Below are positions 2,982 through 46,501 of a stretch of DNA of 54,584 nt, piece after piece; the stretch's first letter is position 1; each line of letters begins with the position of its first letter. Below the pieces are notes generated by a model. That model was not told the origin of the DNA. It did not search any database and was given only the letters and a program-made list of their open reading frames with translations. The stretch lies in NCBI RefSeq assembly GCF_000003605.2, contig NW_003149765.1, positions 314,117 through 368,700 of the forward strand. Reading direction: 5' to 3'. Position numbers and translations under genes: made by a program. Source of the DNA: Saccoglossus kowalevskii (lineage: Eukaryota > Hemichordata > Enteropneusta > Harrimaniidae).

Positions 2982-3188
2982 CTTGAGGAATATTTTAGTT
3001 TTAGCGACATCATCGCTTTCAATCATTGAAAATAATTTATCATCGTTGGGCGCCAACATTTCAGTTAACAATGAGCCATTGTTGTAAACAATGACGAGTT
3101 TATTATTTTTGTAACATTGTAATACATATTTCAGCTGTATTATTTGTGTGCTTTCAAATAAGCGGGTTACTGGTACCATATTTGCCAT
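2982..3188 (-). CDS. Orphan first exon of a fifth TRPC-like gene (gene 0), partial
   Basis: This is a 69-codon minus-strand exon from ATG at 3188 to a strong AAG|GTAAGC donor at 2982. Its last 25 or so residues, with DDKLFSMIESDDVAKTK then IFLK, align with the ends of first exons in the neighbouring TRPC-like genes (for example HELLAAVESGD then KVLLK in gene B), and the donor is in the same phase 0. Its N-terminus is longer and unlike that of the others (rich in hydrophobic and Asn residues), so the true start may be one of the internal Mets. No second exon is visible in the 2.98 kb to the window edge. Either the gene continues to the left after a long first intron, or this is a relic. Gene D also has a 3.4-kb first intron, so the first option is reasonable. 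Confidence 0.6.
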
Positions 3189-5259
3189 GCACCCTGCAAA
3201 GATGATTTATTATTCTATTTTCATAAAACATGGAACGTATGATTCCTTTTGTGCTACACTAATTATAGCTCGTTAAATACGGAAAAATATGTATTTATGT
3301 GACTTGAACTATGTATTTGTTATCACCACATATGGTTCAAACTCGAGTGTCTGGATGTTTTAATTACAACTGATTAAATGCAATATTACTTTAAATGTGT
3401 ACTTACTTATCTTTTTATTGTTATATCATTTTGTCATTGAACATTTGTGTGTGTTTTTTTTTATTTTTTTTATTGTGAAAATAAATGTGAATAATAATTG
3501 AATAATGAATTAGTTTTAAAATGGGTGGCATTATAGTATTGGTATTGTATACTGCAATATCCACAAATACATTGTTTTTTATCATATATGTGTATTTACA
3601 GTTTGTGGTATTGGAATTATGCTCTCCGTGTATGCCGTTATTATTCATCCCTTCACATGCGTCATCCAAACAGTTTTTGGACAGATGATGTGACAGTAGC
3701 TCATCTCATAATTCGACAAGCTACAATTTGTTTATGATCTATTATCTACGATTCGATTATTATTTTCAATAAAATATCTCCTGTGTCAAAGTTGTCATTT
3801 TGTATCGGCCATTGCCAATATATGGACACTGAAAACATGGCATATACGTTATATATCGATTAAATCACTTAATACTATAGCCGGGGATGCGTCCGGGTCT
3901 CCAGGGAGTGCTATCTATTGATATCCAGCTTTGTCAAACAAACCTTAGATATTACGGTACTGTATGACACATTTATCGTAGTTTTCACATCGCCTTTCAT
4001 GGGATATTAATGTCAGGTAATAATGCCGAATACAAAACAATTTGATTTGTAAGATTAATGTGGTTAAATTTGAACAAAAATATGTTCAATATCTTAGCTA
4101 TTGCTGCAAAATATATTTAATCTTATGTAGTCATAAAGACGGGCTCGCCATTGAGAAATACAAATCAACCCTAGAGACGCCATTATTTTTATCATTTCGA
4201 TAATATTGAATTAAAGTGTACAAGAAAATAGTATATGATTGATGTAATGGCACGTCAAACATGCTGAATCATTACCAACTTTAGAGGGCGGAGTTTATGT
4301 CAGAATAAGCTAAATGATTGTATAAAGTCATAAGCTTTTGCTGAAAGGTAAATAAAACGAGGGTGCTGGTTATGGAAGTAGCATGGAGTTCCGGTTCTTA
4401 GCCCTGACTTGAGCAGGTACTTAACCGAACCTATTAAGTCACGTATAGCTATTGGAATTATTATTATACGCCCTCTTTCCGTAGTGCTTTTGTTTATAAC
4501 GGGGTTCAAATAACCTTATAGTGGACGAAGAACGAGTTTGTCTAACTGGAACTGGAATAGTAATGAAGTCGGGTAGATAAGATGGCGCTTCATTGTGTAA
4601 AATCTTATAAACTAACCTGAACTTGCCTTATCTATTCCATTCTCTAAACGGCTTCAACGTCTGAGCAAATATAATGAGCTAGAATCATTGAAGTTGAAAC
4701 TAGGTGTATCATTGTTAGAAATGGAATATGACATCATATTGACAAAAGCTGTCTCTCGCTGTATTTCATTGGTCAGATATACATGTCATAATGCAAGAAA
4801 GTAGTCCATAGTTTTAGAAGATTATTGCAGTGGCTAATGGCTGAAACATTGAGTGTCGACAAATTCTGAGAGAGAACTATAATTTCACTGTATGCTCATA
4901 ATCATTTAATAATCAAGCATTAAGCTAGCATTTTGCCTATAATTATGCCTAGATATATTAGATGTAATCTAGTGTACTAAATTGTAATAATCTTAACACT
5001 GTAAGGAGTATAGAAAATATTATTTGATTTGATGTTAGACATCCTAACCCTTGTGTCAAAAAAACAAAAATGCCCATTTACGCTATCATATTTCATGTCA
5101 ATTCAAATATCATCTTTCTAAATAAGTATTGTAACTAGCAAAACTTGTTTGTAAACAACACAAATTGAGATTGTTCAAACAACATAGCGAAAATTCAGTT
5201 TCAAATTGGTATTTCACTTGACGGGGACCCATTGTTGTCTATAGCTGATGTGTTTTGAG
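3189..5259. other. Spacer between gene 0 and the 3' end of gene A
   Basis: AT-rich, with no supported gene. A 195-bp segment at 4283-4478 is bounded by short inverted ends (AGAGGGCG and CGCCCTCT) and may be a small MITE-like insertion. No clean AATAAA signal on the minus strand was seen just downstream of the gene A stop. Confidence 0.5.
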
Positions 5260-8200
5260 TCAGTGAATCACCGACTCATTCTCCGTCGTAGTTACGAGAT
5301 CTTCCAGCTTAATTACGGATCGTGCAATCATGTATCGACTTACCAACACCCTCACCAACTGCAATTAAAACAATAGAAAATGGCTAGTATATGAATAACA
5401 ATAATGGTTTTTATGGTTCTGAACATTCTTTATTTCTTTGAGGGATTATATATCTTAATCACCACTTGACCACATACACAGCATATTTAGGCAGAAAATT
5501 ATGAGGTGTCGTTTGTGCATTTATTTATATAAATAATCATATACAATACTTACACGATTCTTCATTATATGTAAATAATACAATTGTGGTACACTTTGTT
5601 TGTGTATAATGAAGTGAATTATTGAACTTATTTGTATATAGTAAAAGGTATCTCATTAGATATGTTTATACAATTGTGCTTCAAATATATTATAAATAAA
5701 TGTACAATTACCAATTATACATATAATAAATGTTATTACAAATTATTAGTATTACATATTGAGTAACCATAAATGTATATAATAAAAGTGCATAACTAAT
5801 ATTTTTACAATTTTGCTTCCAATATATTTTATATAAATGAATTGTATTCTCAACATTATGTTTCAGTAATTTCATTTGTTCAATTATATGACGTGAGATA
5901 GCGCGTCCTGTGGCGACACAGCGTGTTAGAGATAAACCCGACTGTGCCGCGTCATGCAAATTTTAAGCTCAAATAACGTGAAATACAGTAATTAATTCTT
6001 AAAAGATACAAAACAAAAATAGCTACTGGTGTCCTGGACAGTGAGCAAAATAGTTTGTAAATAAAATGTTTGACGAATATGTATAATATACTTATAATAC
6101 AAGTCTGCGTGAAAATGGCATGCATATAATATTGTTTTCTGTGATAATTATATGTATATTATTATACACATATAATAAATGTGAGCGTGACAATTAATTG
6201 CATATAGCATAAGTGTAGTGACAATTATTTATATACACATTGAGTATGCTGTTTGCATGATTTACAAATAATATTTAAATATTTACCATATATTTATACA
6301 TAATGTTGGCAATGTAATTTATTCATATATAAGCGGAATTGTTTATACATGCGTAATGCAGTCTCTGATTACATAGAAACTATTTCAATAATTCACTACT
6401 TTATATACAAATATTTTGTACAACAATTGCACTATGTACATATAATGAAAAACGGTGTAATTAGTATATATAATTTGCTTGTATCAATAAATGCACAAAC
6501 GGCACCCCATAGTAAAGTAACGTTCAACTCTGGTTACAATAAATAAATCATCGCCTCGCTGAGAGGCAGTAGCGACGGAAAAACAACTTAGACACGCCAG
6601 TTGACGTGAAGTTTGCCTTCCAGAAATATGTCGTGAAAAACATAAGCTTACGTTTATATATATTTGATTTTAACTTGTTTTGCATTTCAGCTCTTTTTTT
6701 GCTTGTATATAATACTATTTAAGGATGCTCTTACCGTTTCATAAGACAGATCAAATTCATCCGCTGGCAAACCCAGTTCTGCATTGTTGGTGAACTGAAA
6801 AACAAAACTAGATCACTTGTATAATGTTCAATATAATATAACAACATAAAAAAAAATTGTGAGAATGACTCGTCTCGATCGGCCTAAATTTGTATTATAA
6901 TATAATTAAAGAGGCGATACAAACCTCTATTTCTTGTGAATTTCCCGACACATTTTTTCGACAGAATTTTCGATGAATACGTTCGATACATAGTACTATT
7001 GGAGCAAATATATTGAATGGTGGACATAAGGCCGGGAGATCGAAATGATCTAACCATATACGCGTGCGCTGAAATTTCCATTCCATGTCAATGTTACCCT
7101 GTAGAAATGAAACGGAGTATTCAAGTACTTCTGAATATAATGAGACACCATCTTCGTAGCTGCAATTCATGTGATGCGGAAAGTAGACGGGTGTTCAATG
7201 AGAACTGAAATGCTTTAAAATATTGAATCACTGCTCAAAACAAAGTGTAAGGACGAAATTTCTTTGCTGTACGTCTTAAGATCAGTAATTCGTTTTATTA
7301 TTACAACTATTACTTACAAATTAACAACGCGAATTAAGTTTTAGTAGCCGTCAAACGTTGGTGTTATTGTTACAACGAAGGATTTGAATATACATAAATA
7401 CATGGGCTGGTGTGCCCTAATTGCAGGTTGGAAATGGGCAAATATTTAAAGGAATAGAGTCATTTTGAAGTAAAAAAAAAGAGATAGCAACAAGTGCTCA
7501 TCCAGGGCGAGGTCGCTAGTACTAATGTGATACTAATGCATTTAAGCCTCACCTTTAACCTTGAGTATGTGTCTGACATCATAGCTATACAAATGTTCAC
7601 CAGTACAATGATGGAAATAATACCAAAAGATGCATATAGTGTGTGCCCTGCTGTTCTGTATACAGCAGTTGCATCCTGGGTATTACCAGAAGAATCGTTG
7701 AATGCTATTGTTATCTCCAACTCGTCAGCGGAGTCCGATCCAAAGATGGTGGTAAGTAGCGCAGTGATTGCTCTATCAATTCTGAAAATGCAAATGCATG
7801 CAATTAAAAGAATTCAATTCATCTCACCGACGGTCTTAGCGATATCTTAGCGTTATTCATTTTACCGACACCACAACGCATCTGTTATGATTACACCAAT
7901 ATTGAAATGCCATACAAGATTATGACTGGCTGACACTATAATTATACTATAAGACCTACGACTGAAAATATAATGATTGACAGGAATGGCACATGTTTAT
8001 AATTATATATTTCATAGTTGGTAAATGTATTGTAGCAACATACAGCATGGGGAAAAACAGATCAGATGAAATGTGTAGGAGTACATGACATGTTACTTGA
8101 TATTCTATACATTACAAAGCGTTCTTCACTTTTCGATAACCCAAAAATATCATTTTAATTAATACTTACCTACTAAAAACGTTGATGTACGTGCTGCCGT

Positions 8201-10990
8201 GGTAGAGGTTGTAAAAGCCAAGTGAGAATGAGCCGACTACAAATGCAAAGATGATCAAGAACCTTATAACATCACCGCTCATTGCAACGAACTGAAATAA
8301 TATTGGCCCAATAAATGTACTGAGATATAGATAGTGAAGGAATCGTAGGCATGCGACAACCAGAGCCACCGATGTCCAAGAGTCCCAAACAAAACGAGCA
8401 GTAAGGTCGATGTTCAGTGTTTGGTCTAAAATATTCAGGGCAATGTCTACTGAAAAGGATAAGAAGATGAGGATGTCCACATAGTTCCAGATGTTAGTGA
8501 AATATCGTTCGGCCCCGAAGTGGTAAAGCTGTACAGCTTCTTGGCATAGCATTGTGGAAGCGTAGATCATAAGAAACCACAGCAGCACAATATAACTTAC
8601 TGGAAGCAGATCTTGCAGTTTCCACGGGTTCCTATTGATCACGATAATTTCGATCAAGACCAACAACAGGAACAACAAGTAAAAAGCCATATAAGAAACG
8701 AATTTCGACTTGGGATTGTCAATTATTTTACTGAAGGGCGCACAAGGTGCAATGACATACAATAGAGCAAACATTGGATACAGACAAAGGTGCACTAAGA
8801 AACAGTATAGAGCATACAGAAGGTTCCAACCAATGCCGTTTCTGGTGTGCCAGTGTGGTTCATCGCGTAGCCATTCTCTCTTTACAACTTTCTGGCATTT
8901 ATGATGAGCAACAAACTGAAAAAAAATTAATATAGTTACCATTCAAAAGAGAAACGTAGAAGGCACATTTTTAATAGCGTGCAATCTCAATTGATGTAGT
9001 GAGTATTATAACGAAGTTTTACACAAAAACATACGCTCACATGTCACTACCATCTATGAATGAATGATTACAGAGGCGAGTAACACAACGCTATCTATAA
9101 TATGTGATTCGAACAATAGGTTGGTCTGGCCTTTCAAGGTCGACACGTTCGCCACTGGGGGCATGGAGCCGGGAACAGCCACTGGTGGTGCTGTATACAA
9201 TCAAAACTTAGTAATGCTTCTCTACGCTCATTCAGATGTGCAGGCCGGAAAAAGTTGTTAAATTTGGTGACCATTTTAAAAAGCGTGTACAATTTTCAAT
9301 TTACCACAATTAATAGACAGAGTAGGGGTCATAATAAATGATTGTCTACGCCATACCCTCATTAAAGATTAATAGCATATTGTATACGCAGTGCGCATGC
9401 TTCTTCTTCTTTTTCTGTATTCCACAACATATGCGTCATCACAGTTAGGTCATTTGCAATTTAAGTTACATGCAACGTCACGTTCAGCACCATCAATGGG
9501 TTTCATCACATTGATGGTTCTGAACGTTGACTTCGTATTCGACGCCCACACATAAGCGACGCTATCGGATATATACAACAGCTAACAAACACACCAACCC
9601 AGCGACAGCTGAGGAATTGTACACACTCCCACCATGTCATACACTGTAATATGCAATGACAATCCTGGTTTCCCATAATTCTGAATTACATTGCAGTAGG
9701 CTAAACATACTGTTAGTTGGGCATAGTTTTACCTCTTTTTGAACAGTTGTCATAGCACTCCTCAGTATTTTCAAAGGAGGTAGCTCATTGTGGACATATT
9801 TGCCACCCTTGCATTGTCGACCATTAAGTAACGTCAGTACTTCGCCCGAGTTGTTGCAATGGTCAAGAAGCTCGACAGCAAATTTCTGGGTTCGTTGTAA
9901 TACATCAAGGTATGCAAGCTGTAAATATAATCAGATATTCTCTTAGTTGTGTAACTAGCGGATGTAATTAGAGTAAATTGTGACGTGAAATGTGGGGAAA
10001 GCATTTTACATGAATGCACTCAGTACCATTAGAATAGATAAATTTCAATGTATAATTTTATTATAGCAAATAAAGTTCACAAATGAATAAAGCGCAATCA
10101 AATGGTACATATTTCACACACCTTTGAAGTATCCTGAATTTCTCTATGTTGTGTTAAATTCTTTATGTCTTCAGACAATGTGAATATTGCCATCACTGGG
10201 TCATCATAGGTCAAACCAATATAAGACGGGCTCGAGAGGGCGCGGTACATTGCTAGTCTAATCTCGTCATCGATCACGTCTTCGTTAGCTGCAATGAGAG
10301 ATAATGGGTTATCTAGAAGTATTTGCTTACTTATTCGACTAAGAATGTAAAAGTTTTCATTTGCTTGTTCCATGTACCCGATCTAAAATTCAGATAAAAG
10401 CAAACAATGTGTACCCATTCACATAGCCAACTTAAGTAAATGAAATAGTCGCGCATGCGTATCGTGCCACTATGTTTCAGAATACAGTGGAATATTTAAA
10501 AGCCCTCTAACTATACTATTTGTGGTCAACGAACCATTTGGGGACAGTGGTTTTTGTAGTCTCTCCGCCCCACACTCCAACAGCAGCTTCACCATGTGAA
10601 AGTCGTCTTTCTCCGCAGCAAGTTGCAGAGCAGATATCGACTGGTTACTCCGTCTACCAACACAGTTCACGTTCACATTTTCGTGCTAATGAGACACAAC
10701 GTACACTTAATAATAATAATAATAGTAGCGATTAAGCAGTTTTCGGTTCATCGAAATTCAGATACTGACAGTATTATCGGAAATACAGGATAACATCATG
10801 ATAAAAAGTCGTACTGAGGAATGTTATCATTTCTTCATACCTGTAAAATGTTTTTTACTTGTTCCAAATCCCCACTCTCCACTGAACCGAGAAATTTCCC
10901 TTCCTGCTCGCGTAACAGGGGATTTGTTTGTGATTCAATTATATACTTCTTCTCGTCGACACTGAGTTGGAAAACCGTAGAGTCGGACAT
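5260..10990 (-). CDS. TRPC-like cation channel, compact form (gene A), complete, nine exons
   Basis: Exons, in transcript order: 10841-10990, 10535-10685, 10122-10288, 9733-9918, 8170-8915, 7553-7781, 6925-7098, 6735-6794 and 5260-5358. They join in frame to 653 aa, all with GT-AG introns. It is predicted to be a plasma-membrane non-selective or Ca-permeable cation channel subunit acting as a tetramer. An ankyrin remnant lies at about residues 30-98. The Trp_II linker (about 115-220) includes the MYRALSSPSYIGL and YDDPV motifs. Next come a pre-S1 hydrophobic segment (248-275), S1 (292-312), S2 (324-345), S3 (364-383), S4 (399-417), S5 (433-455), pore helix TALLTTIFG (473-481) and S6 (515-535). 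The TRP box EWKFQR starts at 549 and is followed by PPFNI. Glu344, Gln347, Asn362 and Asp365 match the TRPC4/5 calcium site in identity and spacing. The last exon (SRYMI) is short and ends without a coiled coil. The two smallest exons are the least certain. Confidence 0.88.
5501..6510. mobile_element. Long-inverted-repeat (foldback) element in intron 8 of gene A
   Basis: The left arm starts ATGAGGTGTCGTTTGTGCAT and the reverse complement of the right arm starts ATGGGGTGCCGTTTGTGCAT. Similarity continues inward for about 100 bp (shared TTCATTATATGTA, then CAATTG, then GTAC). The interior is extremely AT-rich with repeated TATATAAT-like words and no transposase frame. It lies wholly inside the last intron of gene A (5359-6734). 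Confidence 0.6.
9480..9527. repeat. Imperfect hairpin in intron 4 of gene A
   Basis: The arm ACGTTCAGCACCATCAATG (9480-9498) pairs with CATTGATGGTTCTGAACGT (9509-9527) with one mismatch across a 10-base loop. The stem is 19 bp. Function unknown; it could be the core of a small foldback repeat. Confidence 0.6.
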
Positions 10991-13650: not shown

Positions 13651-13659
13651 ATCATGGAC

Positions 13660-16489: not shown

Positions 16490-16605
16490 ACACATTGTTA
16501 CATGTTTGTTATAACTGTTCTGATTCCAGCAAGGAATCAATTCACTGTGTTTCTCATGTTCATATATTTTCAGTGTTCACACGATTTCATCTCCAGAACC
16601 ACGCT
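16490..16605 (+). promoter_or_regulatory. 5' flank of gene B conserved with gene C
   Basis: This stretch matches 29452-29571 upstream of gene C. Shared words include ATTGTTACATG, TTCCAGCAAG, AATCAATTCACT and TTTTCAGTG. It may be 5' UTR or promoter. It is also open in frame with the gene from an ATG at 16495, so the N-terminus could be 37 residues longer. Both copies contain AG-ending pyrimidine tracts that could be splice acceptors of a 5' UTR intron. Confidence 0.4.
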
Positions 16606-17931
16606 ATGACAGATCCTAGTAATATTGTCCCACTGTCTACCCGAGAGTGGGACTATGTTGCCAACAGTCAGTACGCCCCATCACATGGTGACAAGGAACA
16701 CGAGCTATTGGCAGCGGTGGAATCAGGAGACATTATAAAAACAAAGGTCTTGTTAAAGGTAATACTATTAAACAGGTATAGTTTCTATTGATCATTTCTT
16801 CACGTAACTTAATAATTCACTGTGCGCAACTATTGTTATAGACAAACTTTGTATCATTAATAAATGTCAACAGTTTTAAAAGCCCATAAAGTAATTCTTC
16901 AAACAAACTATAAGGACTTTATTTGGAAAGACACGCGTGGTCTAATTGTGAATGTTGGGTAGCACGTCGATGGAGTTTATAAAGTCAGCATTGTCACATT
17001 GAAGTAATAAGCGCTCGAAACGTTTCTTGGATAATAACAATGACCTAAAGTAGGGTCGGCATAGTTAGTCAGTCACCGGTACATTCGCCTGCCACTCATA
17101 TAATAACACAGGGCAGGAAAGCGTTGACACCATGACATCGAAATTGTACGATAATAAGAAGAGACCCGAACATGCGTAGTTCCAAAACATGTACGCGCAT
17201 ACTGCGTCATCAAAAACCAATGCAGATGTATTTTTATATTGCGAACTATTAGCCCAATTTTCATTTTTCGGGAAAATTCAATTTAAAAATACAACATATA
17301 ATGATACAACATACAACAATACAATATTTAAATGTTGAGACTACCGAGTAAGTAACATTATTGCCTTCTCTCTACATAGAATGGTGACGTAAACATCAAC
17401 TATGCAGGCAGACGCAGGAATCTACCGAAAACAGCACTTCAGCTAGCTGCTGAAAAGAACGACTTTCTCATGATTAAGTTATTGCTGAATCATGGTGCTA
17501 AGAAATTGCCAAGACCGCCCTCTTGTCAGAGTTAGTCGAATCTATTGTTCATAAATACTTGTTCAATTGTATGTTGATATAACAACATCCAACTCGTGTA
17601 CCGATACTGGAGTCACAACATAATATTGTTTACCCTGAATTTCTTGTTACTGCTATACCTTGCTCCTCACAGAACCTGAGAATATATTAGAAGATGACAT
17701 GAGGTACGACTTGTACAGTGCCATTTGTTCCCCGGCATACCTAAGCCTAGATAACGACGACCCTATTACGACGGCAAACGAATTACTTTATGAGTTGTAT
17801 ATGACATCAGTTGCCAAGGAAATAGTCGAAACTTCAAAGGTCAGTAACTAATCATACAACGCAAAATGACAATATGTGAATGTATATGTTATAGTGATGC
17901 ACTAATGTAATCGGGCATAAACTACAGTGGT

Positions 17932-18095
17932 GTTCACGTTAGAGATCTCGACACGTGCCGAGACTCGGGACCGAGTCTCGGCACGTGTCGAAAAAAAAAT
18001 CGATCGCCGTCCCGATAGATGCTCGGAACCGAAATTTGGCACGTGCCGAGATTTGCTGTCAGAACGCTCGGCAGGAGCCGAAATCACACCCTCGG
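17932..18095. mobile_element. MITE copy 1 with a perfect 21-bp-arm palindrome
   Basis: It starts GTTCACGTTAG and ends near ATCACACCCTC, in intron 3 of gene B. Inside, 17948-17968 and 17971-17991 are perfect inverted arms separated by GA, each with the CACGTG core and GCCGAG words. The GTTCAC start and the CGCCCTC-like end are shared with four other copies in the window. Confidence 0.6.
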
Positions 18096-18227
18096 TGGTG
18101 AATTTAAGAGAACATATACTGATTCATACTAGTATTACGTGATGATGGAGGGAAATGCAAATACATATTGTCGGATGCCCTAGTAATGAATGAAATGAAT
18201 GTAGAACGCATATTTATGTGCTGCTGT

Positions 18228-18271
18228 TGTTTTTTTGTTTTTTTTGTTTTTTTGTTTTTTTGTTTTTTTTG
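18228..18271. repeat. (T)7G low-complexity tract
   Basis: About five units of seven or eight T followed by G, in intron 3 of gene B. It is a simple repeat with no gene. Confidence 0.9.
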
Positions 18272-18446
18272 CAATTCTACATTGACGTGAACAAAATAAT
18301 TGTTTTCGAATCTTCCTTGCCGTTCATGTGCACGATAACCCGTGTTAAATAAAACAGAAAATGGATATAATTTCAAGAAAACAATTATGATTATCATCAT
18401 ATGCGTATCATTTTCCATGTTTGGGTCAAATAATAGATCAAAGAAT

Positions 18447-18505
18447 GAGGGCGTGATTTTAGCACGAGTGCAGTCGGTCTCAAGTGGGACCCGACTAACG
18501 TGAAC
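18447..18505. mobile_element. MITE copy 2, short, reverse orientation
   Basis: It runs from GAGGGCGTGATTT to CTAACGTGAAC. In reverse it begins GTTCACGTTAG like copy 1, but it is only about 59 bp long. It could also be the right-hand end of a larger composite whose left end is copy 1. Confidence 0.5.
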
Positions 18506-19787: not shown

Positions 19788-19953
19788 GTATTTGAGGGCG
19801 CTGTTTCGTTTGACTCTAATCAAACTGAATTGGACTCCGGTAGATGTCGGTTCTCGTTCGGATCCCGACCGTGTGAACGCATTGGCAATTTCCCCCTCGT
19901 TAATCTGTCGGAAGATCTGTAATTCGGCTCCGATAGAATTCTGCCGTGTGAAC
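19788..19953. mobile_element. MITE copy 3, reverse orientation
   Basis: Its reverse complement begins GTTCACACGGCAGAATTCTA and continues TCGGAGCCGAA. It matches the copy at 47341-47490 along its whole length, including GCTGTT near the GTATTTG end. It lies in intron 3 of gene B and is non-coding. Confidence 0.7.
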
Positions 19954-20112
19954 ATATCAACTGTCACTCTTTTTAAGTTTTGAAATTAATGACTTTACAA
20001 ACATTCATTGTGTGTTTTAATCTCAGGTTAATGAACAGTATGTTTACATAAGTTAAATTACCTCAGAAAAAATACTAGTATTATAATCCTCATGGCAACT
20101 GAGAACACTGCA

Positions 20113-20201
<89 letters not shown>
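20113..20201. repeat. (ATT)n microsatellite, about 29 copies
   Basis: An uninterrupted trinucleotide run in intron 3 of gene B. It produces a spurious poly-Asn frame on the minus strand. Confidence 0.97.
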
Positions 20202-20202
<1 letters not shown>

Positions 20203-29396: not shown

Positions 29397-29451
29397 AAAA
29401 TAATAAATAAATTAATTAATCACAAGGAACTTCAAACATATCTACTCTCAC

Positions 29452-32500: not shown

Positions 32501-35500
32501 AAAATAATATTAAGGAGACACAATATTTTGAATATGTTTAAAATGGTCAATCATCGGCATGCATCATTTAGATTTTAATATCAAAATCAATGTCACAGAG
32601 TCACTAAATATGTTGACGGCCATAGCTAACAATAAATATAACCATAAGCCCAACTTAATAGGTACACAAATGAATGAAAGGGGAAGATGCTGAATCGGTG
32701 AATAAATTAGTGTTTAAATACGTATAATTAATTAATTATTGCCTCATTTGATAGATGGGCAATTTTAGCTAGCGCCACGTCACCCAAATATGTTTACAAA
32801 CCGTAAGCAAGCCGTGGCTCTGATTGGATATCGACAACGAGTGCCGTCTAGTTTTATTATCATTCTTATTCTCGGACATTTGCCTGCATTATAAATGTAA
32901 ATTCGGGAGATAACACTAACCTCTAAGATCAAAATTATGTGCTAACTGAACTGGATTAAGAGAGGCTTATTATTTTCATTATCTGTATAAGGCATGCAAC
33001 TAGTTGTAAATATGAATAAAACCAAGTAGATGAGAAACCCAAGCATAAATGTATGTGGCACTTTGTAAATTGAGAAAACACAATCAGATTACTTAACAAA
33101 ATATAAATATTTGGGGGGATTTATTTTCTCATTATAAATATCGAGTACTATGGGTAGTATTTGTTTGTTCCACGTTATTATACATTTTTTTATTATTTAT
33201 CCGTAGAAATAGTCGATAAATGTCATTTCATAATTGCTAGTATTGTTTCTTTGTAAAAATCCGGTGCAAAATATATTCAACCTAATATGGCCTACACACA
33301 TTCAACAAGAATATATTGTGACATCCTCTTGTCAAGTAATAAAAATATTGTCACCTGTAATGTTGTAATGTTAACTTTTCATTTCAAAATAAATATATAA
33401 AATAATCTCTAATGTGTTTTTTTCTTTCTATATTTCATAGACTTAATTCTTCAGTTACGGCCCTAATTTCCACTATATTTGGCGGAGACATATCCGGTGA
33501 CCTGAAAGTGAGTGGCATCGTTTACAACGTGTCATCAGAAATTCACGATGTCTCGGGTACTTACCAAGCAGTGGGGTATATACTATACACATTTTTTGGT
33601 ACATTCGTCATGCTGATTCTCGTCAATATATGTATTGCTATGATGTCCGACACATATGCCAGACTCAAAGTAAGTGTAATTCTGATATGATTGATCGTTA
33701 GGTATAACAGTGCAACTGTGAACTAACATATGAATTTTGCCGACGAGCTGTGTATGATATATTGCCCATTATCAATTTACATTCCGTTAACTATGTAAGA
33801 ATTGGTGTGCATTGACCCTTTTTGATAAAGCGTTACATCTGAGTAACAACAACAAAATTTAGCTCAATTCCTTATTTGTTATTCTTAACTGGGGCTTGCT
33901 GTGGTCTGATTTTGTATATTGATTTGCAAGCAATAGAAAAACTTTCCGATACAACTCGTGCCTTTTTAGTTTTTTTTTTTTACTTGTTATCTGTAGTATT
34001 TGTGTGTGAAACTCCGGAAAATTAATACTAATTGAATTGGTGACATATACTTACTCAAAATCGCATTATATCTCCATGGAAAGAACAAATTCTGTTCAGT
34101 GTTTTAGACGCTGGGTGATCTCGCATCTACGACACTTAAGACATATCGCATCATTCAAAACTACACTGTACCGAGTAAACATGTTAAATTGTAGGAACAT
34201 ATCGATTGTGAATGGAAGTTCAGAAGAACAAGCATGTGGATGAATTACGTCAACGCTTCTGTTCTACCAGCTCCATATAACATCATACCGTCATTTGCTT
34301 GCTGTAAGTACTTATGTCCCGAAAAATGTAGATGTTTCAATTCACGGAAGATAGTACAGGAGGATTTTGAGGTGAGTTTTAATACCGAGACTGATGCACA
34401 TAGTCAACACATTTGTTTGAATGGATTGTTTGATACATCGATTTTGGGATTGTATTTCACTTTCAACCCTGTGAACTGTATTCACAAATACATTCTATAA
34501 TAACACCGAAGATAGTCTATGTTCCTTGATATTACACCAATATATTGATTTCTCTCAGGAATATGTTAAATTAAATTGTATACGTTTGCACAAATGAGAA
34601 ATTGAACATTTTCAAATTTTAAAAACTAAATCTTCTGATGAATTCGCATCGAATTGTCTTAAAATTGTGCGAATCTTATTCGATCTGTAAGTACTTGAAT
34701 GAAAACGAAATATTTAATTGTACTATATCCTTTAAACCCATGATCAGCGATGTATTGTGTTTTACAACACGTATTATGCGGGTGATGCGCACAGTTTATG
34801 ATCAGTTTTAAGTATTTCTTCAATGAAGTATCACCCTATCCTCTTCGACATGCTGCAAAAAATGACTATTTGCCAACCACGGTATTAAATCAATACATGG
34901 CAAATACTCAACTCTGCGTTTGAAAATCGCTACTGATTGCAATATGAAAAAACCCTATCATTTTTTTCAGCATAATGATGCGTCCATGAAAGAACTCCAT
35001 CTTGTAAGTTTTTGTTTTATCCAAATTCGAATAGTGAAATATATGTACTTGATAAATGTTTGTGAACACTCTATATATAACACAATCTAGTTCCAACTAC
35101 GTATACTCTAGCTTCAACATTCGTTTTTAAATTACGGTTTAGGCTATTTACTAACTTAAATGTGATTTTTTCCGACCTGGCCTACAACGTATGAAATAGT
35201 GATACCTGATATTGCAGTATTGAGGCCGTCGGACAGTGATGTCACATGGTGCTGCTGTGACAATATTTTTTGCACGTTATTTATAACAGAGACACATAAA
35301 TGTATATTTAATATAACACAACGAACAATGCCTTTATTTTATCTCCTGGTGTGAACTACTGGTTCTTGCAAACCAGTCACTGTGCATGCGCACAACGTAA
35401 AACATGTGCCTACTATGATGTACTCTTGCAGCTATCACTGTGCTTCATGTATTGTCACAGTCATGTATTGATTGTTGGATATATTTTACCAGGTGAACAT

Positions 35501-36659
35501 TGCCGCCAACAAAAGGGATAGCGATATGACATGTGATGTGAACTTGTCCTATGACGAGGTGAGTAAAAATGTACACTTTTCTGGCTGCATTAGTTTTTGG
35601 GTCATTGCGTTACATTACACCGCATCGCACTATACCGCACTATACGTCTCTGCACTGCGCCACACTACACTATACCGCCCTGCACCGCACTATACTGCTC
35701 TGCACTGCGCCACACTACACAACACCGCCCTGCACCGCACTATACGGCTCTGCACTGCGCCACACTACACTACACTCCGCCGAAACGCAGTGTAACGCAA
35801 CACAACGCAATATAGTACTCAGATGGTGAATTGTCCGAGTTACGGAGATGAAAAAATCAAGTTGCAAACAAATTGTTTTATAGAAACCACTCCCACTATC
35901 GCACAGCGTCGACCAATTGAGTGCTGTGTTAACAATTTCCCGAGTTACGGGCACCATGTAATTTGTTGTTTAAGTCCACGGAAAGTAATACAAATTAGGG
36001 AGTTAGGAAATTGTTGTTGTTTTGATATTTATATATAACGCAATCAAATTTTGACCACGTAATGAGCTTGTTTGTTTCAACTTTTGGTTCCAGTCGCTGA
36101 ACGTTTGTGAAGCTTAAACAACAAAAATTATCTGGGTTGTCCGAAACTCGATGTTCGGTTAACATTTAATTGAACATCGAGTATAATTTGGGCTTGATTT
36201 TGCAAAAGTATGGCTCCAAATATATGGGCGTGATTATTTTTGTCATTCGACGTTTTTGTAACTCGACAATCGCAACCCGAATAACCTTTAATATAGCTTT
36301 AGCATTTCGCTAAATTTCATTATTATTTTGCACAAATATTATGATACTGTGATAAATAATCGAAAAATATTTCTGCAATATCGAAAGATCACAACGTTTC
36401 ATGCAAACCTGTTGATTACGTTTATCGGTCTACAGCTTCTAACAGTATTCTAAATGTCTTGCAGCTTCTCAATGTATTGTTTAATCGTTATCTGATCATG
36501 AAAGGCATCGTGGATGAAGAGACGCTGATGAAGTCTAGACCGACAACAGGGCCAGAGGACAATGAATATGGGGTTAGTGGACGGGAGGGCGATACATTGG
36601 GCACTGGCGCGGCTGGTGATTATGGTGTTGGCGACAGTGATCATGGGGAATCTCTGTAA
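29572..36659 (+). CDS. TRPC-like cation channel, compact form (gene C), complete, nine exons
   Basis: Exons: 29572-29724, 29931-30081, 30278-30444, 30936-31115, 31544-32283, 33441-33669, 34195-34371, 35493-35558 and 36465-36659, giving 685 aa with all GT-AG introns. The start ATG gives MTDPSSI and matches the MTDPSNI start of gene B. An ankyrin remnant (about 32-100) is followed by the Trp_II linker with SPAYLSL and NDDPI motifs, then S1-S5 in exon 5, pore helix TALISTIFG (470-478), S6 with NICIAMMSDTYARL, and TRP box EWKFRR from 546 followed by LPAPYNIIPS. Glu340, Gln343, Asn358 and Asp361 keep the TRPC4/5 calcium site with exact spacing. The C-terminus (LFNRYLIMKGIVDEE, then a Gly-rich tail) is short and lacks a CIRB or coiled-coil region. 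It should form a Ca-permeable channel at the plasma membrane. Cofactors and gating are unknown. An AATAAA lies near 37257. Confidence 0.9.
31229..31480. repeat. Direct repeat, left copy, intron 4 of gene C
   Basis: About 250 bp that recurs at 32529-32795 in intron 5. The two share AACCATAAGCCC, then ATCGGTGAATAAATTAGTGT, then TTAAATACGTA, then AATTTTAGCTAG and CACGTCACCCAAA. The two copies flank exon 5. Confidence 0.75.
32529..32795. repeat. Direct repeat, right copy, intron 5 of gene C
   Basis: Partner of 31229-31480, in the same orientation and diverged by indels. Exon 5 (31544-32283), which encodes S1-S5, lies between the copies. Confidence 0.75.
35617..35815. repeat. Minisatellite, about 50-bp unit, about three to four copies, intron 8 of gene C
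   Basis: Units contain CCGCCCTGCACCGCACTATA followed by a variable CTGCTCTGCACTGCGCCACAC segment broken by small changes. They create open frames in all three plus frames with no codon-like pattern. Confidence 0.85.
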
Positions 36660-38100: not shown

Positions 38101-41100
38101 TTAGTTGACACTATCACGTTTTTGATGAGCTTCGTCGTTGGGTCCAACATGTATCACGACGCCTGGGCCGCCAAGTCCAAGATTATTCTTCTCTATTGCG
38201 TTCACGTTGCCATTGGTTTCAAACATTTGATCTTCTTCTGAAACTACGCCTTTTTCAATCATGTAACGATTAATCAACTCCTTGGTCAACTACGGAAAAA
38301 GTTGATTGAAATATTGATTCAATATTTTGTTTAATATTAATTTTGGTAATTATGATGCCATGTTGTATGTACATACGGCATGTATTTCAATTTTAGAGAT
38401 ACACTATGGTACCTGTTGTTGACTCTCGCTGATAATGGGGCTTGTAATGCTCTTTTTGCATTCTTTATATTTTCAACCGCGACTGTTATGATCGAGTTGG
38501 CATCCAATAAGAGCGTATCTTATTAAAACAACGCATACTTTTATGCTTGTGGAAGTCCGATTCATTTGTTGATTCCCGGTGTTAAGTGTGGTAAGTAGGC
38601 AGATACTAGTACATGTAGTTACAAAGACGAAACAAATGGAATAGTGTCTATCCCTAAACCATATTATGAACTATCCGTTGTCACACATAAGGATTTTCAA
38701 CTAACGCGTGATAGTAAGTGTACATGTTTCTTACCTTTGTGTAGCTTAATGAAAGGATATCCTTCCCCAATGTATTGTCCTACAATAAAGCAATCACTCA
38801 CTGTATCACCATCGATTTGTTTTATATGAGCACAAAACAACGCCTCTTTGTATAGCACGATCCAAGCCATCATGGTTTGTGTCGATATTTTATAGGTAGA
38901 GTTACTACCTTACATTACTTTACACGTGGTTATTATGGAGACATAGAGGTGTGGCTATGGCGTAATGAAATCAATATTTAATACTCACCTCAGTTCGTGG
39001 TGCAAGACAGCCTGTAGAGTTTTGTCTGTAGCATAACTTCCTGGCAATGTACATTAACCAAGTAACTGATGGAATGACATTGAAGAATGGAGGCAACACA
39101 GGACCGTCAAAATGCTCCAACCACATTTTAGTACGAACATATTTCCACTCGATGTCGATGTTTTCCTGAATTTGTGAACAAAAATATAATAAAAGTAGAT
39201 TTTTAAGATAACATTATGTGAATATTGTTACATAAAATGTAAATAAAGCGGGGGAGTCTTCACCTGCTCATGCGTCAGATGGCCATAGCGTGTCATTGTT
39301 TCAAAACAAGCGTTTACCCATAAGCATTTGCGTTTTTAGCGTGTGTTGTTATCATGATCGCTTGGGACTCAATTTCCGCGCGTGCGCAGGTGACGACCCG
39401 CCCGCTTTAACCTAATTCACTACACGTCGCGCCATGTCGAGTTCGATACGGATCACTTATCCAGCAAATAACGCGTGTAGACGCCGTTATGCACTGCACG
39501 ACTCGGGACACGCCCCGATCCATATCAACTGATTTCGACACGTCCAGTTGCGGCGAGTCTACGACAACAAATATACTGTTTCACTTGAGATCTACTCATA
39601 GATGCGGCGAGATTTCTATGTGTGCGATAGTTGACTCCTGCTTCCAACGAATCGCGGTATTTTTATCGGATGAACGCAAATCAACACGGAGATTATATGA
39701 TTGTGGCGATACCATATTCAGTGCCACATGTATATTCAGTGCCACATGTACATTCAGTGCCACGTGTACATTCAGTGCCACATGTACATTCAGAGATGAC
39801 ATATTCACGATTGTCATTTTTTACAATTTTTATCTGTTTGCAAGTTGTTTATGTTTGGGTTATTTATTTAATAATTTAACTCATCTACTTGCGCTATCCA
39901 CGTTTCAGCGGCATATGGTTTACATCATGATATCTATATAAACATAATTGTTATTGACATTGTACATTGCTGTAACTTGCTGTAGTGTGTAACCTAGATC
40001 AGGGTTGCTATACGCAAAGATCAGATTGATACTTGAGTTCAAAATCAATTTATTCGATCTGTTTTGTCTGGGCCTTTATGTAATGTGCAAAATCTCGTAG
40101 CGAACGGAAACTCGCCTACTGCCGACACAAGCATTCCATTTAAAAAAAAAAAAAAAAGCATGCCACAGGGGGCGCCCTATACCGATTTGCTAATGCATTT
40201 CTAAATATTGAGAGTTGAAAGGAGTATTGGCCACTTTTTCAACACTTTTTCGAAATTTGTTTTTCATCAAGCAAAAATACGTGTTTCTTCAAATTTGGAT
40301 ATTCATCGCATAGCACCCAGAAATTTTTTTTATGTTCTCTTGTTGGCTTTTTCAGACATCGCGTTTGCAACGGAATTTAAAACATAAAAAATGTTTACTG
40401 CCGGAGCACGTAGTCGTAACAGTAATTTATATCGTTTATCGTATTGTTTGAATTCATTAGATCGTGCGTAAATACACAATTCAAATTAAGTATTTCCAAA
40501 ACATACCATTTTTGTTTAAGTCAGACTCGATACGTACCCTTAATCTGGCATATGTATCTGACATCATGGCGATGCATACATTGACCAATATAATGATGAG
40601 CGAAACTCCAAAGAATAAATACATGACCACGCCAATGCCAGCAATCATAATGGAGGCATCGTGTACGTCATAGCTATCGCCATCTGAGTCAGTTACATTG
40701 TAAATAACGTTGACGTACAAGCTACTTGTTGGGTCCGATGTGAACAGTGTGTTCAGTAATGCGGAAATGGCCGTGAAGAACCTGTGATAAAATTAAACAC
40801 AGACAATTTATTAATTACATTATATTTGACACATAAGCCACAGTAAATATACAAGTAAACTAAACAAAATTAGAGTTAAAAGGGATTCCAGAATAAAGGC
40901 GTTTATACTCACGCATTAAAATCGCCAGTACCATCAAGTTCAGCATAGAGGTAGTAAAATCCGAATGCAAACGACACCACCGTGAAAAAACAGATACACA
41001 GAAAGCGAATGACGTCACCATTCATGGCTACAACCAACAGCAATAAAGGTCCGAGAAATGTACTCAGGTAGAAAAATCTTATGAATCGAAGGCATGCTAG

Positions 41101-44100
41101 AACTAGAGAAATTGCCGCGATCGAATCAAAGAAGATCCTGACCATGACGTTGACGTGCACGAAATTGTCCGTTATATGCAGTGTATTGTCCACTAGAAAC
41201 GGGACAAATATGGATAGATCCATCCAGTTTCTCACGTCGCTAAAATAGTCTCTTGGGCCGAGCCTGTACAACTGGCTGAGTCCGGCCATTAAAAAAGCAC
41301 AAGCGAAAATCAGCAGCCAAACTATCAATGTTTTGTCGGCCGCAGTCAACTCGACGGTAGGATCGTGCGCCATTGTTATGTCCACTATTAACACAATCAG
41401 CAGAAACATCATGTAGGAGTACAGGTGGGACAGGAATTTTCCTTTGGGGTTGTCTAATATCCGGGATAGTGGGGCGCATGGTGCTATTATGTAGACAAGG
41501 ACTAACAAAGGCATCAGTATCATATAGACTATGAAAGAGTAAACGGCGTACAGCAGAGTCCAAAACAGCCCGTTGCGTGTATGCCATTTTGGTTGTCCAT
41601 GCAGCCAGTCTTTCTTTACCTCCTTTTGACACTTCCAATTAGCAACAAACTGCAAAAAACAAACACATAGACAAACACAATATTTCATACGTTTGTTGTA
41701 CATACTAATGGGAACCATAACCTCGACGTAAAATTTGAAATTATAAAAGAATGGAATTGCGTTGAACATGCCTCTTTTTGGCGACTTTTGACTGCTCTTT
41801 TCAACTGGTGGAATCCGTGAAGGCCTCCTGGTCCTCGCTCTAAACTACCGCCCTTGCCGCTCAATATAATAAGTACTTCTTTCGATGTATCACAGCAGTT
41901 AACGAGGGCAGCAATATATTGCCGTACCTGGCGTTGTAGCTCCATGTACAAAGACTGAAAGGTGGAATACAACGAATACACTTGAATTAGTTATTTTCCA
42001 GCGCCTCGAGAAAATAAATATACAATATAATAATGATATACTCGTATAGTAGTTACTAGTATGTGTAACACCATACACACGTGACTTGCATTGTATGTGC
42101 TCGTGTTCATGCTGTCATGTAACCACGTGTAAGTAAACATGTATCACCAATGCGGTAGTTACCTGCGAAGTGTCCTCGATTTCTCTAGCATGTGTCATAG
42201 CACAGAGTTCATCTGATAGATCCATCGCAGATACAAACGGGTCATCGTGGGCAAGGCTCATGTAAGCTGGACTCGAGAGGGCGCTATAACGATGAAACCT
42301 CATGTTATCGATTTCTACACATTCAGACTCTCCTGCCAAACACAATAATGTTATGTTGGAATCGATCAGACAACTGAGATTACCCGACGTTGCATGGTTG
42401 TGTAAAGTAAATATATAGTGCGATATGAGCAATGAATAATTATTTTGTGAAAATAACAATACTCCAAATACCATCACATTACTTTGACAACAGTTTTGGG
42501 GAGACACGCTTGAAATTCATCGTAAATACATGTATATGAATTTGATATTTTGTGCCATAATGGTGTGCACATTGAAACTTGAAACGTGCTTCTTGTATAT
42601 ATCTGCCGCCAATTGGGAAGATCATTTAATATCTTTGAAACTAGTGCACATAAATGAGGATTTATATTTCATTTTCAGTTGATTCTCAGGCTGTTTAAAA
42701 CAGCCTTAATTATCATTTTTACCAATATATACGCAATAAATGATTTGTAAATAAAAACAACACATTCCCACGCAAACACAATTGTGCCTTACCATTCGGT
42801 ATATGTGGTTTATCGAGTGGTGTTGCTCCATTGTCTAACAATAACTTCACGAGTTGAAAATTGTTGTTTTCTGCCGCAAGCTGCAGTGCGGATACAACTG
42901 TTCGTTTTCGTCTACCACTGCAGTTGACGTTCACGTTTTCACTCTGTAAGATACGAACAGAAAAAGTGTTAGATATTTAAAAAAAAACGATCAAAAAATT
43001 AGCCAGGACAAATAACTGTTACTAGTGCACGGTGAAAATGAAACGGGTAATAATGGCATGGAAAGTAATTAAATTAACAATAATGGCATGGAAAGTAATT
43101 AAACTAACAATAATGGCATGGAAAATACTAGTAATGACATAGTAATAATGGCATGGAAAATAATGACATAGTAATAATGGCATGGAAAGTAATTAAATTA
43201 ACAATAATGGCATGAACAATAATGACATAGTAATAATGGCATGGAAAATAATGACATAGGTAATAATGGGATGGAAAATAAAGACATAGTAATAATGGCA
43301 TGGAAAATTATGACATAGGTAATAATGGCTTGGAAAATAATGACATGCGTAATAATGGCATGGAAAATAATGACATAGTAATAAGGGGATGGAAAATAAT
43401 TACGTAGTAATAATGGGATGGAAAATAATGACAAAAGTAATAATGGGATGGAAAATAATGACATGCGTAATAATGGGATGGAAAATAATGACATATAGGT
43501 AATAATGTCATGGAAAATAATGGCATGCGTAATAATGGCATGGAAAATAATGACATAGTAATAATGGCATGGAAAATAATGACATAGGTAATAATGGGAT
43601 GGAAAATAAAGACATAGTAATAATGGGATGGAAAATTATGACATAGGTAATAATGGCTTGGAAAATAATGACATGCGTAATAATGGCATGGAAAATAAGG
43701 ACATAGTAATAAGGGGGTGGAAAATAATTACGTAGTAATAATGGGATGGAAAATAATGACAAAGTTAATAATGGGATGGAAAATAATGGCATGCGTAATA
43801 ATGGCATGGAAAATAATGACATAGTAATAATGGCATGGAAAATAATGACATAGGTAATAATGGCATAGAAAATAATGACATGCGTAATAATGACATGGAT
43901 AATAATGACATAGTAATAATGGAATGGAAAATAATGACATAGATTATAATGGCATGGAAAATAATGACATAGGTAATAATGGCATAGATAATAATGACAT
44001 AGTAATAATGGCATGGAAAATAATGACATAGTAATAATGGCATAGAAAATAATGACATAGTTAATAATGGCATGGAAAATAATGACATAGTAATAATGGC

Positions 44101-46501
44101 ATGGGAAATAATGAAATAGTAATAATGGGATGGAAAATAATGACATAGGTAATAATGGGATGGAAAATAATGACATAGTAATAATGGCATAGAAAATAAT
44201 GACATAGGTAATAATGGCATGGAAAATAATGACATAGGTAATAATGGCATGGAAAATAATGACATAGTAATAATGGCATAGAAAATAATTACATAGGTTA
44301 TAATGGCATGGAAAATGATGACATAGATAATAATGGCATGGAAAATATTGACATAGTAATAATGGCATAGAAAATAGTGACATAGGAAATAATGGCATAG
44401 AAAATAATGACATAGTAATAATGGCATAGAAAATAGTGACATAGGAAATAATGGCATGGAAAATAATGACATAGTAATAATGGCATAGGAGTCGCAAAAT
44501 GAGCTAAAACAAATTTGTCCTTATTGTTATAATATTCCACAACCGGAAACAAATATACAACAACAAGTTGTCATTATTATATTTACATTACAAACATAAT
44601 ATAACGACGGACTTGTGATATTTTAATTTTGACCTCGGGCTGATAACAAAATGGTTCACACCAGGTTGGTTCGACGGTAGGTTCACTGCCGCTAGATGGC
44701 GCTAATTATAATTGTCGCGTTCGATAAAGGGCTTCTGCGACGTATACAAAGAGTGTAATATACAATGCTTGTTTACAGGCCCGTTAGCGCGATGCGTGAC
44801 GATAGAAATATACTTTCACGAGTTGGCATTAATATTTACGAGCGTAAGACCCCTCTGTAATAGGAGACGTTGCAGTGCTGGTGGCTGGGTGGTACATACA
44901 CAACCGTACTGAGCCCGAATCGTACAACTAAGCGAGTAGAAATTTGAACACTCTGTGCATACCTTGAATATATATGGCTACGTTCATTCAAAGCATTCTT
45001 CCATCAAATACAAACATAATAGTTGTATACAACTGTTATTCAGATGTCCATGCCAATAAACTAGTCGTGTCGTTTGCCTACAGTGGTATTGTAAATTGGT
45101 GAAAAGAAACGTGTATACAATTCAATATCCTCCTGGGATCGAGTTGTTCCTTCTTTTATTTGTTAATCGTGATGTTGACAGCGAGTGGTGGACGGCAATA
45201 ATTACTACAATCATTCTACCTAACTAGTGTAATGCTGCTCTGAGCTTGGTGACACCATTTCTTCACTTCAAAGTTTATAACAAACATTTCAGAAATCCAG
45301 TTCTCGTTTGCAGTTGCGAAGCTTCTGTTCTCGTTTGTACCTGTTCTACTCGCCACATACGCATTAGGTTACTGATTGTGTAGACACGTTCATTCGCGTG
45401 TTCACTGAATATACAATGCCTGTGAATGGTATGCATTGTTTCATAAAATCGTTGCATGTTTCAAATTCAAAGAGGAAAAATAAAAACAATTCCAATAAAA
45501 GAATCTGACACCCACTTTGAAAGAATTGGATGCATGTAAGAAATCTAGCCGTATATCATATGTTACAAACTATACACGTGATCAATGCCACAGTCGATGC
45601 CACGGACCACGCTGCGTGAATATGACGTGTTTTCTAGCAATTGAAATGTCAGGTTGTTAGCGAGTGAAGTTCCACTGGAGTCTACGTTGATACATTCATA
45701 CAATTACTCGTTCCCTTCCAATACACCTGTATGTGCAATGAATACGCTCCTGCTTGATCTATTCAACGCACGACAAAGATCGCCTTATGAGAAGTGATTG
45801 CAAACTATTGTTGTCAATACCCAAGTTATTTAATCGCCACCTTGTCGCCATGGTTACAAGAGTTACACGTGAAAATACATGTAACAACACATCATATTTA
45901 TTTTTGACTACAATGTTTACACAATAGCTCAGGGCACAGTTGGGATGGATAGAATGTGTTTGAGGCAATGTATTAATAGATTCGTACGTAATACAGTAGA
46001 CGCCATAGGTGAACTGAAGCCCACAGTCCCCCATAAAACCATGGAAGTATAAAGAGATAAACTGACCTTGGTGACGTAAAGCAAAGACACTAGTGTCTTT
46101 GCGTAAACCCCCGTCTTTACACTGACCTACCGGTTTAGACTTATGTCGAGAGAAATCACTACAACATACAGAATTTAGTATTACTGACGACACACTATGG
46201 CGAGTTTTTCAATGTACATAATAATTTAAAAGTGTTCACGAATTATGATACTTAAGTAACAAAGACAATCCTATAACCGCTATATGATTACCAATGCATG
46301 ACTGACTTTCAAGTTGTACACTAAAGTTAAACAAGCCCGTAAAGAAGTACCAACCTGTATAAGCGAACAAACCCCTTCAAAGTCCCCATCTTCCACTAGT
46401 TGTAAGAACTCGCTTTCTTGCGTCGAGTTAGTAGACTGCTCTTTAATGCTGGGGGTCTCGTCGTTGAGAGAAAACTCCGAGACTTCAATTACTCGCGACA
46501 T
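38101..46501 (-). CDS. TRPC-like cation channel, compact form (gene D), complete, nine exons
   Basis: Exons, in transcript order: 46355-46501, 42793-42943, 42163-42332, 41772-41954, 40913-41649, 40538-40781, 38989-39165, 38735-38779 and 38101-38289. They join in frame to 680 aa. Exon 4 ends GAG|GCATGT, a GC donor at the position where gene A has GAG|GTAAAA. The ankyrin remnant (ALQLAAENNNF), Trp_II segment (SALSSPAYMSL and HDDPF), S1-S6, TRP box EWKYVR from 550 and PPFFNVIPS are present. It differs from its paralogs in three ways. The pore filter region reads LFT at 475-477 instead of IFG. The calcium-site Glu is Gly340, while Gln343, Asn358 and Asp361 remain. The extracellular segment after the pore helix is five residues longer than in A and C. 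Exon 8 is only 15 codons and was placed by the LSLSYTK match to the other genes, so it is the least certain exon. Intron 1 (3.4 kb) carries a large minisatellite. Confidence 0.85.
39716..39792. repeat. 18-bp tandem repeat, four copies, intron 6 of gene D
   Basis: The unit is ATTCAGTGCCACATGTAC with one or two changes per copy. Because 18 is divisible by three it keeps frames open on both strands (FSATCT repeats), but no other coding sign is present. Confidence 0.85.
43047..44491. repeat. 1.4-kb minisatellite, unit 29-30 bp, about 50 copies, intron 1 of gene D
   Basis: The consensus unit is GTAATAATGGCATGGAAAAT followed by AATGACATA, often with an extra G. Variants (GGGATGG, GGCTTGG, CATGCG) recur in blocks, which suggests higher-order duplication: a run near 43241-43450 is repeated near 43560-43800. 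The array keeps long frames open on the minus strand (up to 329 codons of MSLFSMPLL-like repeats), which are artefacts of a unit close to a multiple of three. Confidence 0.95.
46081..46102. repeat. Perfect 22-bp palindrome in intron 1 of gene D
   Basis: GCAAAGACACTAGTGTCTTT followed by GC reads the same on both strands. It lies about 250 bp downstream of exon 1 of gene D. No known site was recognised; it may be an insertion scar or a protein-binding dyad. Confidence 0.8.

Follow-up and report, generated by a model that had tools for sequence, protein, structure and literature searches.

The stretch of DNA analysed here, called the window throughout, comprises 54,584 nucleotides of the genome of the hemichordate Saccoglossus kowalevskii (contig NW_003149765.1; C3976:314117-368700 in our numbering) and contains a cluster of compact genes resembling those of TRPC channels. 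Comparison of exon translations with the window (tblastn) returned the same eight large exons four times over, in copies that we call A, B, C and D, with copy-to-copy matches down to E 1.6e-104; the TRPC-like genes are real, and these matches, like the Pfam and PDB scores given below, are not chance similarities. A ninth, small exon of 45-66 bases, located by hand among candidates, lies between the exon for the TRP helix and the last exon in A, C and D. Only for these three genes do the joined frames include exons 8 and 9; in B, the two exons were located. Joining nine exons each gave open frames of 653, 685 and 680 amino acids (aa) for A, C and D, respectively, which agrees with the range of 653-685 aa given in the initial annotation of this DNA. 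The intron phases (0,1,0,0,2,0,0,0) are common to the three genes, and AG acceptors and GT donors are found at all their junctions, with the GC donor of D exon 4 as the sole exception. The features are as follows, with positions counted from the first nucleotide of the window.

2982..3059, minus strand: orphan exon E, similar to the last part of exon 1 (ankyrin repeat 1) and followed by a GTAAGC donor; weak.
5260..10990, minus strand: gene A, 653 aa, a nine-exon open frame with AG/GT throughout, and Ion_trans and TRP_2 over the Pfam cut-offs. Exons 10990-10841, 10685-10535, 10288-10122, 9918-9733, 8915-8170, 7781-7553, 7098-6925, 6794-6735, 5358-5260.
7553..7781, minus strand: pore exon of A, with filter FGSDS and sequon NDS.
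16606..24015, plus strand: copy B, a pseudogene on the nine-exon plan of A, C and D, from exon-by-exon alignment to C with the pieces translated. Exons (approximate) 16606-16758, 17380-17530, 17673-17839, 20507-20686, 20985-21723, 22400-22629, 23047-23223, 23492-23557, 23839-24015.
29572..36659, plus strand: gene C, 685 aa, a nine-exon open frame with Ion_trans and TRP_2 over the Pfam cut-offs. Exons 29572-29724, 29931-30081, 30278-30444, 30936-31115, 31544-32283, 33441-33669, 34195-34371, 35493-35558, 36465-36659.
31544..32283, plus strand: exon 5 of C, encoding membrane segments S1-S5 undivided; an exon of the same kind is found at 22 genome loci, one of them broken.
33441..33669, plus strand: pore exon (exon 6) of C, with no LFW, filter FGGDI, post-filter sequon NVS and S6 NICIAMM.
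38101..46501, minus strand: gene D, 680 aa, a nine-exon open frame; Pfam was run on an earlier 626-aa concatenation. Exons 46501-46355, 42943-42793, 42332-42163, 41954-41772 (GC donor), 41649-40913, 40781-40538, 39165-38989, 38779-38735, 38289-38101.
40538..40781, minus strand: pore exon of D, with filter FTSDP and sequon NVT.

In copy B all nine exon equivalents are present and in order, with 67% protein identity to C. Alignment to C revealed an in-frame TAA near 22464 in the pore exon, which was also detected in the genome-wide search with that exon, and a TGA in exon 7; in addition, the donor of exon 6 carries a 4-base insertion with an in-frame TAG, and exon 8 has a GC donor. A frameshift in the B pore exon was ruled out, since the exon stays in frame when aligned to C and is broken by the TAA. 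The ratio of nonsynonymous to synonymous substitution rates (dN/dS) of B against C was 0.25 (bootstrap 0.20-0.32, 669 codons), indicating that B broke recently, and with its three in-frame stops we regard B as a young pseudogene. Thus the four nine-exon paralogs of identical phases initially reported hold as such for A, C and D, and B shares their plan as a broken copy; the mixed orientation within 44 kb (A minus, B plus, C plus, D minus) was as described. The fifth, orphan exon is weak taken alone (tblastn E 0.002 against exon 1 of B), though a donor adjoins it, and E may be exon 1 of a copy running past the left window edge into unread sequence. It was not accepted as the first exon of K11, one of the copies found to the left of the window, as exon 1 looks different in the kin of K11; the intervening sequence is partly unread.

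The surroundings of the window and the whole assembly (572 Mb in 4830 contigs) were then searched. The flanks taken in, 190 kb on the left and 10 kb on the right, include 56,399 bases that read N. Eleven more copies (K01-K11) were found in the 190 kb on the left, and the contig therefore carries an array of 15 copies over ~222 kb, of which the window is the right-hand part. Genome-wide, exon 5 of D matched 28 rows, which place the S1-S5 exon of the compact family at 22 loci, undivided at 21: fifteen on the window's contig (16 rows), one each on C4568, C346 and C4614, and four on C4610. The remaining five rows (a canonical TRPC gene and four intermediate TRPC genes) match over the first 87-105 residues only, as expected if introns split S1-S5 there in those genes. 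The four genes on C4610 are very divergent compact relatives, with 22-25% identity to D exon 5; the one read was L030. The pore exon gave 16 matches, namely those of all array copies but K11 (14 matches) and one each on C4568 and C346. TRP_2 gave 35 matches, 13 of them on the window's contig, and a single one (the canonical gene, on C2917) covers all 63 positions of the model. Copy counts are lower bounds because of the stretches of N and because only the best candidates were scored.

An array of this kind could consist mostly of non-functional leftovers of a burst of duplication. B with its stops, the isolated exon E and copy K11, which has no pore-exon match and whose exon 5, found as two pieces, contains both a stop and a frame break, are consistent with such decay. 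However, exon 5 is open in 14 of the 15 array copies, and 13 of the 15 have no lesion in the exons read (exons 8-9 of the K copies lay outside the reading). The acceptor of exon 5 and the phase-2 junction between exons 5 and 6 are kept in all ten of K01-K10. Of the 45 pairs among K01-K10, 17 had a synonymous rate (dS) below 1.2 and gave an exon 5 dN/dS of 0.12-0.32, the other pairs being saturated or over that limit, and even B against C still gives the low ratio noted above. These ratios indicate purifying selection on the S1-S5 exon, and we consider an array of leftovers improbable.

Pfam searches, with cut-offs of 27 bits for TRP_2 and 25 bits for Ion_trans, detected TRP_2 in A (41.3 bits), C (33.8 bits) and D (37.8 bits, from the early 626-aa concatenation), over at most positions 13-57 of 63, and Ion_trans at 46-52 bits in A, C and the early D concatenation; the six segments were placed by alignment only. 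When the 626-aa D was searched against PDB, 171 matches were obtained; the top 33 of the 60 listed, with E from 6.5e-64 to 1.2e-41, were TRPC proteins or fly TRP-gamma, and the best non-TRPC protein among the matches listed was a TRPM2-type channel at E 5.3e-15. Twelve fingerprint residues have been described for TRP channels, at least nine of which are present in 95% of TRPs (PMC9242649; here and below, sources are cited from excerpts). Each of A, C and D has ten of the twelve, the changes being at the positions of TRPC5 residues 576 (aromatic to aliphatic) and 620 (Leu to Cys). At the TRP box, where EWKFAR, the TRPC form, had been reported, A reads EWKFQR, C EWKFRR and D EWKYVR, and EY replaces EW in 7 of 10 K copies. 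The short C-terminal tail of A, C and D aligns with the start of the rib helix. The four-residue cation site between S2 and S3 described for TRPC4 (PMC6079076), Glu/Gln/Asn/Asp, is reproduced without change in A and C; in D the Glu is missing, and B has Lys and His at two of the positions. Across the 15 family rows aligned, the S2 Glu is kept in 13 and the S3 Asp in 14.

Membership of another TRP family (TRPN, TRPM or TRPV), with TRPC likeness by convergence, is hardly credible: the FGGD filter resembles the GMGD of TRPV1 by eye, but a TRP_2 domain is present, PDB ranks TRPC far above TRPM2, NOMPC and others among the matches listed, and identity is 16-18% to TRPV1 as against 23-30% to TRPC. 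On sequence grounds, the compact family almost certainly descends from TRPC. A search for relatives in collections of viral and prokaryote sequences gave pattern matches at 15 and 9 stretches, respectively, none of which was confirmed.

TRPC channels are described as containing four ankyrin repeats (PMC6079076, PMC5951680), a zinc motif HxxxCxCxxC stated to be completely conserved across the family (PMC7683545), an extended S3-S4 loop (PMC9242649) and a C-terminal coiled coil (PMC6079076). We aligned the window proteins with TRPC1, 3, 4, 5, 6 and TRP-gamma. In A-D there are two repeat-like stretches (exons 1 and 2) rather than four, exon 2 resembling both repeats 2 and 4. The zinc motif and the turret with its cysteines are absent from A-D in this alignment, and no stretch of the EIKQDIS type, representing the coiled coil, was seen in A, C, D or the pieces of B. 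A-D, like each of the 15 family rows aligned, have a shorter S3-S4 loop.

Such losses could be an artefact of modelling, if exons for the missing repeats, the zinc module or the coiled coil had been overlooked; the models rest on genomic sequence, an exon as small as exon 8 had to be found by hand, and the first intron of D is 3.4 kb long. However, introns 1 and 2 measure only 155 and 246 bases in A and 206 and 196 bases in C, which leaves no room for the missing two repeats. When the window was searched with queries for ankyrin repeats 2-3, the zinc module and the coiled coil, exon 2 of D was the only place matched below E 0.01, the next best match (E 0.012) lying between genes at 14141-14233. 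As positive controls from the rest of the genome, the same queries found ankyrin repeats 2-3 in L002, L005 and L006 and the zinc motif in L001/L029, which are one gene; for the coiled-coil queries a positive control was lacking, since the fetched sequence did not extend to the corresponding part of the canonical gene. One match of the zinc query, in L032 (E 0.013), falls between two exons on the other strand, and we regard it as a chance match. We therefore regard overlooked exons as very unlikely, and the reduced cytoplasmic domain proposed at first is borne out.

The pore was scored by eye in alignments of the 16 pore exons from the genome-wide search. Every TRPC member is stated to conserve an LFW motif in its pore helix, and replacement of LFW by AAA in TRPC5 produced folded but non-functional channels (PMC5951680, PMC6079076). 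In all 16 pore exons matched, both the F and the W are replaced. The filter carries an Asp in 12 of them (FGGD, FGSD, FTSD or FGAD), K01, K09 and K10 reading FGGN and the copy on C346 FGST. The loop between filter and S6 is ~10 residues longer than in TRPC6 and in 14 of the 16 (K04 and K05 are the exceptions) contains an N-x-S/T sequon whose aligned position agrees to within one residue; by eye, no sequon is present at that place in the TRPC1, 3, 4, 5, 6, TRP-gamma and own canonical TRPC rows. Judged from these alignments, five features described for TRPC are missing: the four ankyrin repeats, the zinc motif, LFW, the long S3-S4 loop and the coiled coil. Shortness, by which the genes had been set apart initially, is correct and incomplete as a description, since the pore is remodelled as well.

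Trees were built with TRPC1, 3, 4, 5, 6 and TRP-gamma as known TRPC rows and TRPV1 as sole outgroup. The window proteins form a clade (support 100/100; stem length 2.16 changes per column), which in the best rooted tree groups with TRPC3/6 at 92/98, a grouping that is not starred. By the approximately unbiased (AU) test, a tree with all six known TRPC together and the window outside was not rejected (p 0.19), nor was one in which the window proteins group with TRPC1/4/5/gamma taken together (p 0.19). Nesting inside one known TRPC group, a question raised in the initial annotation, is not the case for TRPC4/5, since placement with TRPC4/5 alone was rejected (p 0.007); the compact family would be sister either to TRPC3/6 or to all TRPC. 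In a larger tree, the 15 rows of the compact family (14 from the array) fall into a single clade (100/100), and the animal's own canonical TRPC groups with TRPC1/4/5/gamma (89/90). Together with the 15 copies in one array, this bears out a lineage-specific expansion. Seven intermediate TRPC genes form a clade of their own (99/99, on 147 columns), and joining them to the compact family lies on the border of rejection (p 0.0496). Support for placing L030 with the other compact rows is only 58/26, with a long-branch warning, and tree placements are affected by long branches throughout.

The placement with TRPC3/6 suggests an alternative in which the genes are ordinary, fast-evolving TRPC3/6/7 (beta-TRPC) orthologues, duplicated in tandem as in oyster TRPC3, with minor losses and TRPC3/6-like behaviour. 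Besides the best rooted tree, the seven TRPC3 copies of the oyster (PMC8004665) and TRPC3/6-like residues such as APCS after S1 (by eye) speak for it. However, the grouping is not starred, and a position sister to all TRPC is also compatible with the AU test. When TRPV1 is left out, the window clade attaches between TRPC3/6 and the remaining TRPC, on its long stem. Moreover, the window proteins have lost the zinc motif, LFW and the coiled coil, each of which is found in both TRPC3 and TRPC6 as aligned. Such orthologues are therefore a possible but rather unlikely explanation.

The compact array is read here as a lineage-specific, TRPC-derived family of ordinary descent and unusual architecture. 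For the initial proposal of an undescribed TRPC subfamily, this means that the descent stands, and that membership as a TRPC subfamily is too strong a term, since the genes lack features for which conservation in TRPC has been described. We favour, on balance, a chain of events in which a TRPC channel gene was shortened and its pore remodelled before tandem multiplication, giving Ca2+-permeable tetramers of perhaps sensory use. Four subunits, perhaps from different copies, would form a cation channel of the plasma membrane, gated, like TRPC channels, by receptor or lipid signals and tuned by Ca2+ at the S2-S3 site kept in most copies. By analogy with D646 of TRPV1, which lies at a similar position and is called important (PMC5951680), a ring of filter Asp residues might favour Ca2+, and a putative glycan at the post-filter sequon would sit over the pore mouth. 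The copies could then serve as a sensory or chemosensory repertoire; this last step, suggested by the array form and by the multiplication of copies under purifying selection, is taken tentatively. A stronger version is doubtful: a separate TRP lineage beyond TRPC, having dropped the ankyrin, zinc and coiled-coil modules and the LFW lock, with an Asp-ring FGGD filter, a glycosylated cap and heteromeric, Ca2+-selective sensory channels.

Several points weigh against the favoured chain. The lack of function of the TRPC5 LFW mutant indicates that loss of LFW could mean either a pore that works differently or one that does not work at all. Four of the 16 copies have no filter Asp, and the type of filter residue does not predict Na+/Ca2+ selectivity across TRPs (PMC5951680), which weakens the inference of selectivity. 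With the coiled coil gone, tetramers are assumed to be held together by the membrane domain and the TRP helix. The S2 Glu is absent from D. The breakage of B and K11 indicates that decay goes on. Finally, the compact gene L030 on C4610, which is more distant, still has LLW, similar to LFW, and reads FGIHEF in the filter stretch without FGGD, so the pore change is not general to every compact gene; if this one gene is representative, the N-terminus may have been shortened before the pore changed.

TRPC channels as described have four ankyrin repeats, the zinc motif, the LFW pore lock and the coiled coil. More than a dozen genes under purifying selection without LFW, whose joined members lack all four of these elements, would reveal what a TRPC channel can do without. 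The natural filter variants are material for testing the basis of Ca2+ selectivity, and the array would be an independent case of TRP genes multiplying in the manner of sensory receptor genes.

Other observations concern the rest of the window and of the assembly. Much of the first intron of D is occupied by a 1.4-kb minisatellite (43046-44486, units of ~30/59/89 bases). The last intron of A contains an inverted repeat (5535-5647 and 6363-6475; 113 bases, 77% complementary), which may be the remnant of a mobile element. Translations at 19779-19985 and 47338-47581 look alike by eye and are perhaps short mobile-element copies; the repeat search gave neither. A Shisa_N exon at 53884-54021 on the plus strand (Pfam, 45.7 bits) presumably belongs to a neighbouring Shisa-like gene that leaves the right edge, and an Rfam scan gave nothing at the gathering threshold. 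On contig C4830, mitochondrial COX1 (L033) was compared by eye with the 1occ chain, which we take to be bovine COX1. None of the nine ATA codons in its aligned part stands at a Met (5 Ile, 3 Val, 1 Leu) and AAA stands at Lys sites, indicating that ATA reads Ile and AAA reads Lys, a code in keeping with hemichordates. ND1-like and COX2-like frames were seen by eye on the strand opposite to COX1.

Animal TRPC channels have been sorted into alpha and beta clades (PMC13402157). TRPC3 and TRPC6, the beta-TRPC of that scheme, are the nearest known group in the rooted tree, with 25-26% identity to the window proteins, and share with them the TRP_2 linker, the TRP helix, the S4-S5 Gly and the pattern of the S2-S3 cation site. 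They differ in having four ankyrin repeats, the zinc motif, LFW and the coiled coil, and in lacking the post-filter insert. The alpha-TRPC (TRPC4/5/1 and fly TRP-gamma) gave the best raw PDB scores at 23-30% identity, and their cation site is matched exactly in A and C; the turret cysteines of TRPC1/4/5 are absent from the window proteins. The animal's own canonical TRPC (C2917, L001/L029) has TRP_2 over the full length of the model, keeps HxxxCxCxxC, LIW, the long S3-S4 loop and the turret, and has S1-S5 split by introns, unlike the compact genes. The seven intermediate TRPC genes, L002-L008 (on C3160, C814, C1005 twice, C3977 and C1752 twice), are a second, separate TRPC set of the genome, in which no zinc motif was seen and ankyrin repeats 2-3 were detected at 3 of 7 loci (L002, L005 and L006).

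Multiplied invertebrate TRPC genes have been reported before. Oyster TRPC3 is present in seven copies, and expansion of TRP genes and tandem duplication are reported for the oyster (PMC8004665); the scallop has four TRPC genes (PMC8539334); these are invertebrate copies, as here, and in excerpts of the two reports no compact form or pore change is described. A compact TRPC with a changed pore was not found in the excerpts or among the titles and opening lines of abstracts surveyed, which lay outside subscription journals and gene databases. Predicted proteins of the compact type may well sit in databases as 'short transient receptor potential channel-like'. Descent from TRPC is thus the known part of this system, and what appears to be new, judging from the genes as modelled here, is a compact, TRPC-derived architecture with a changed pore.

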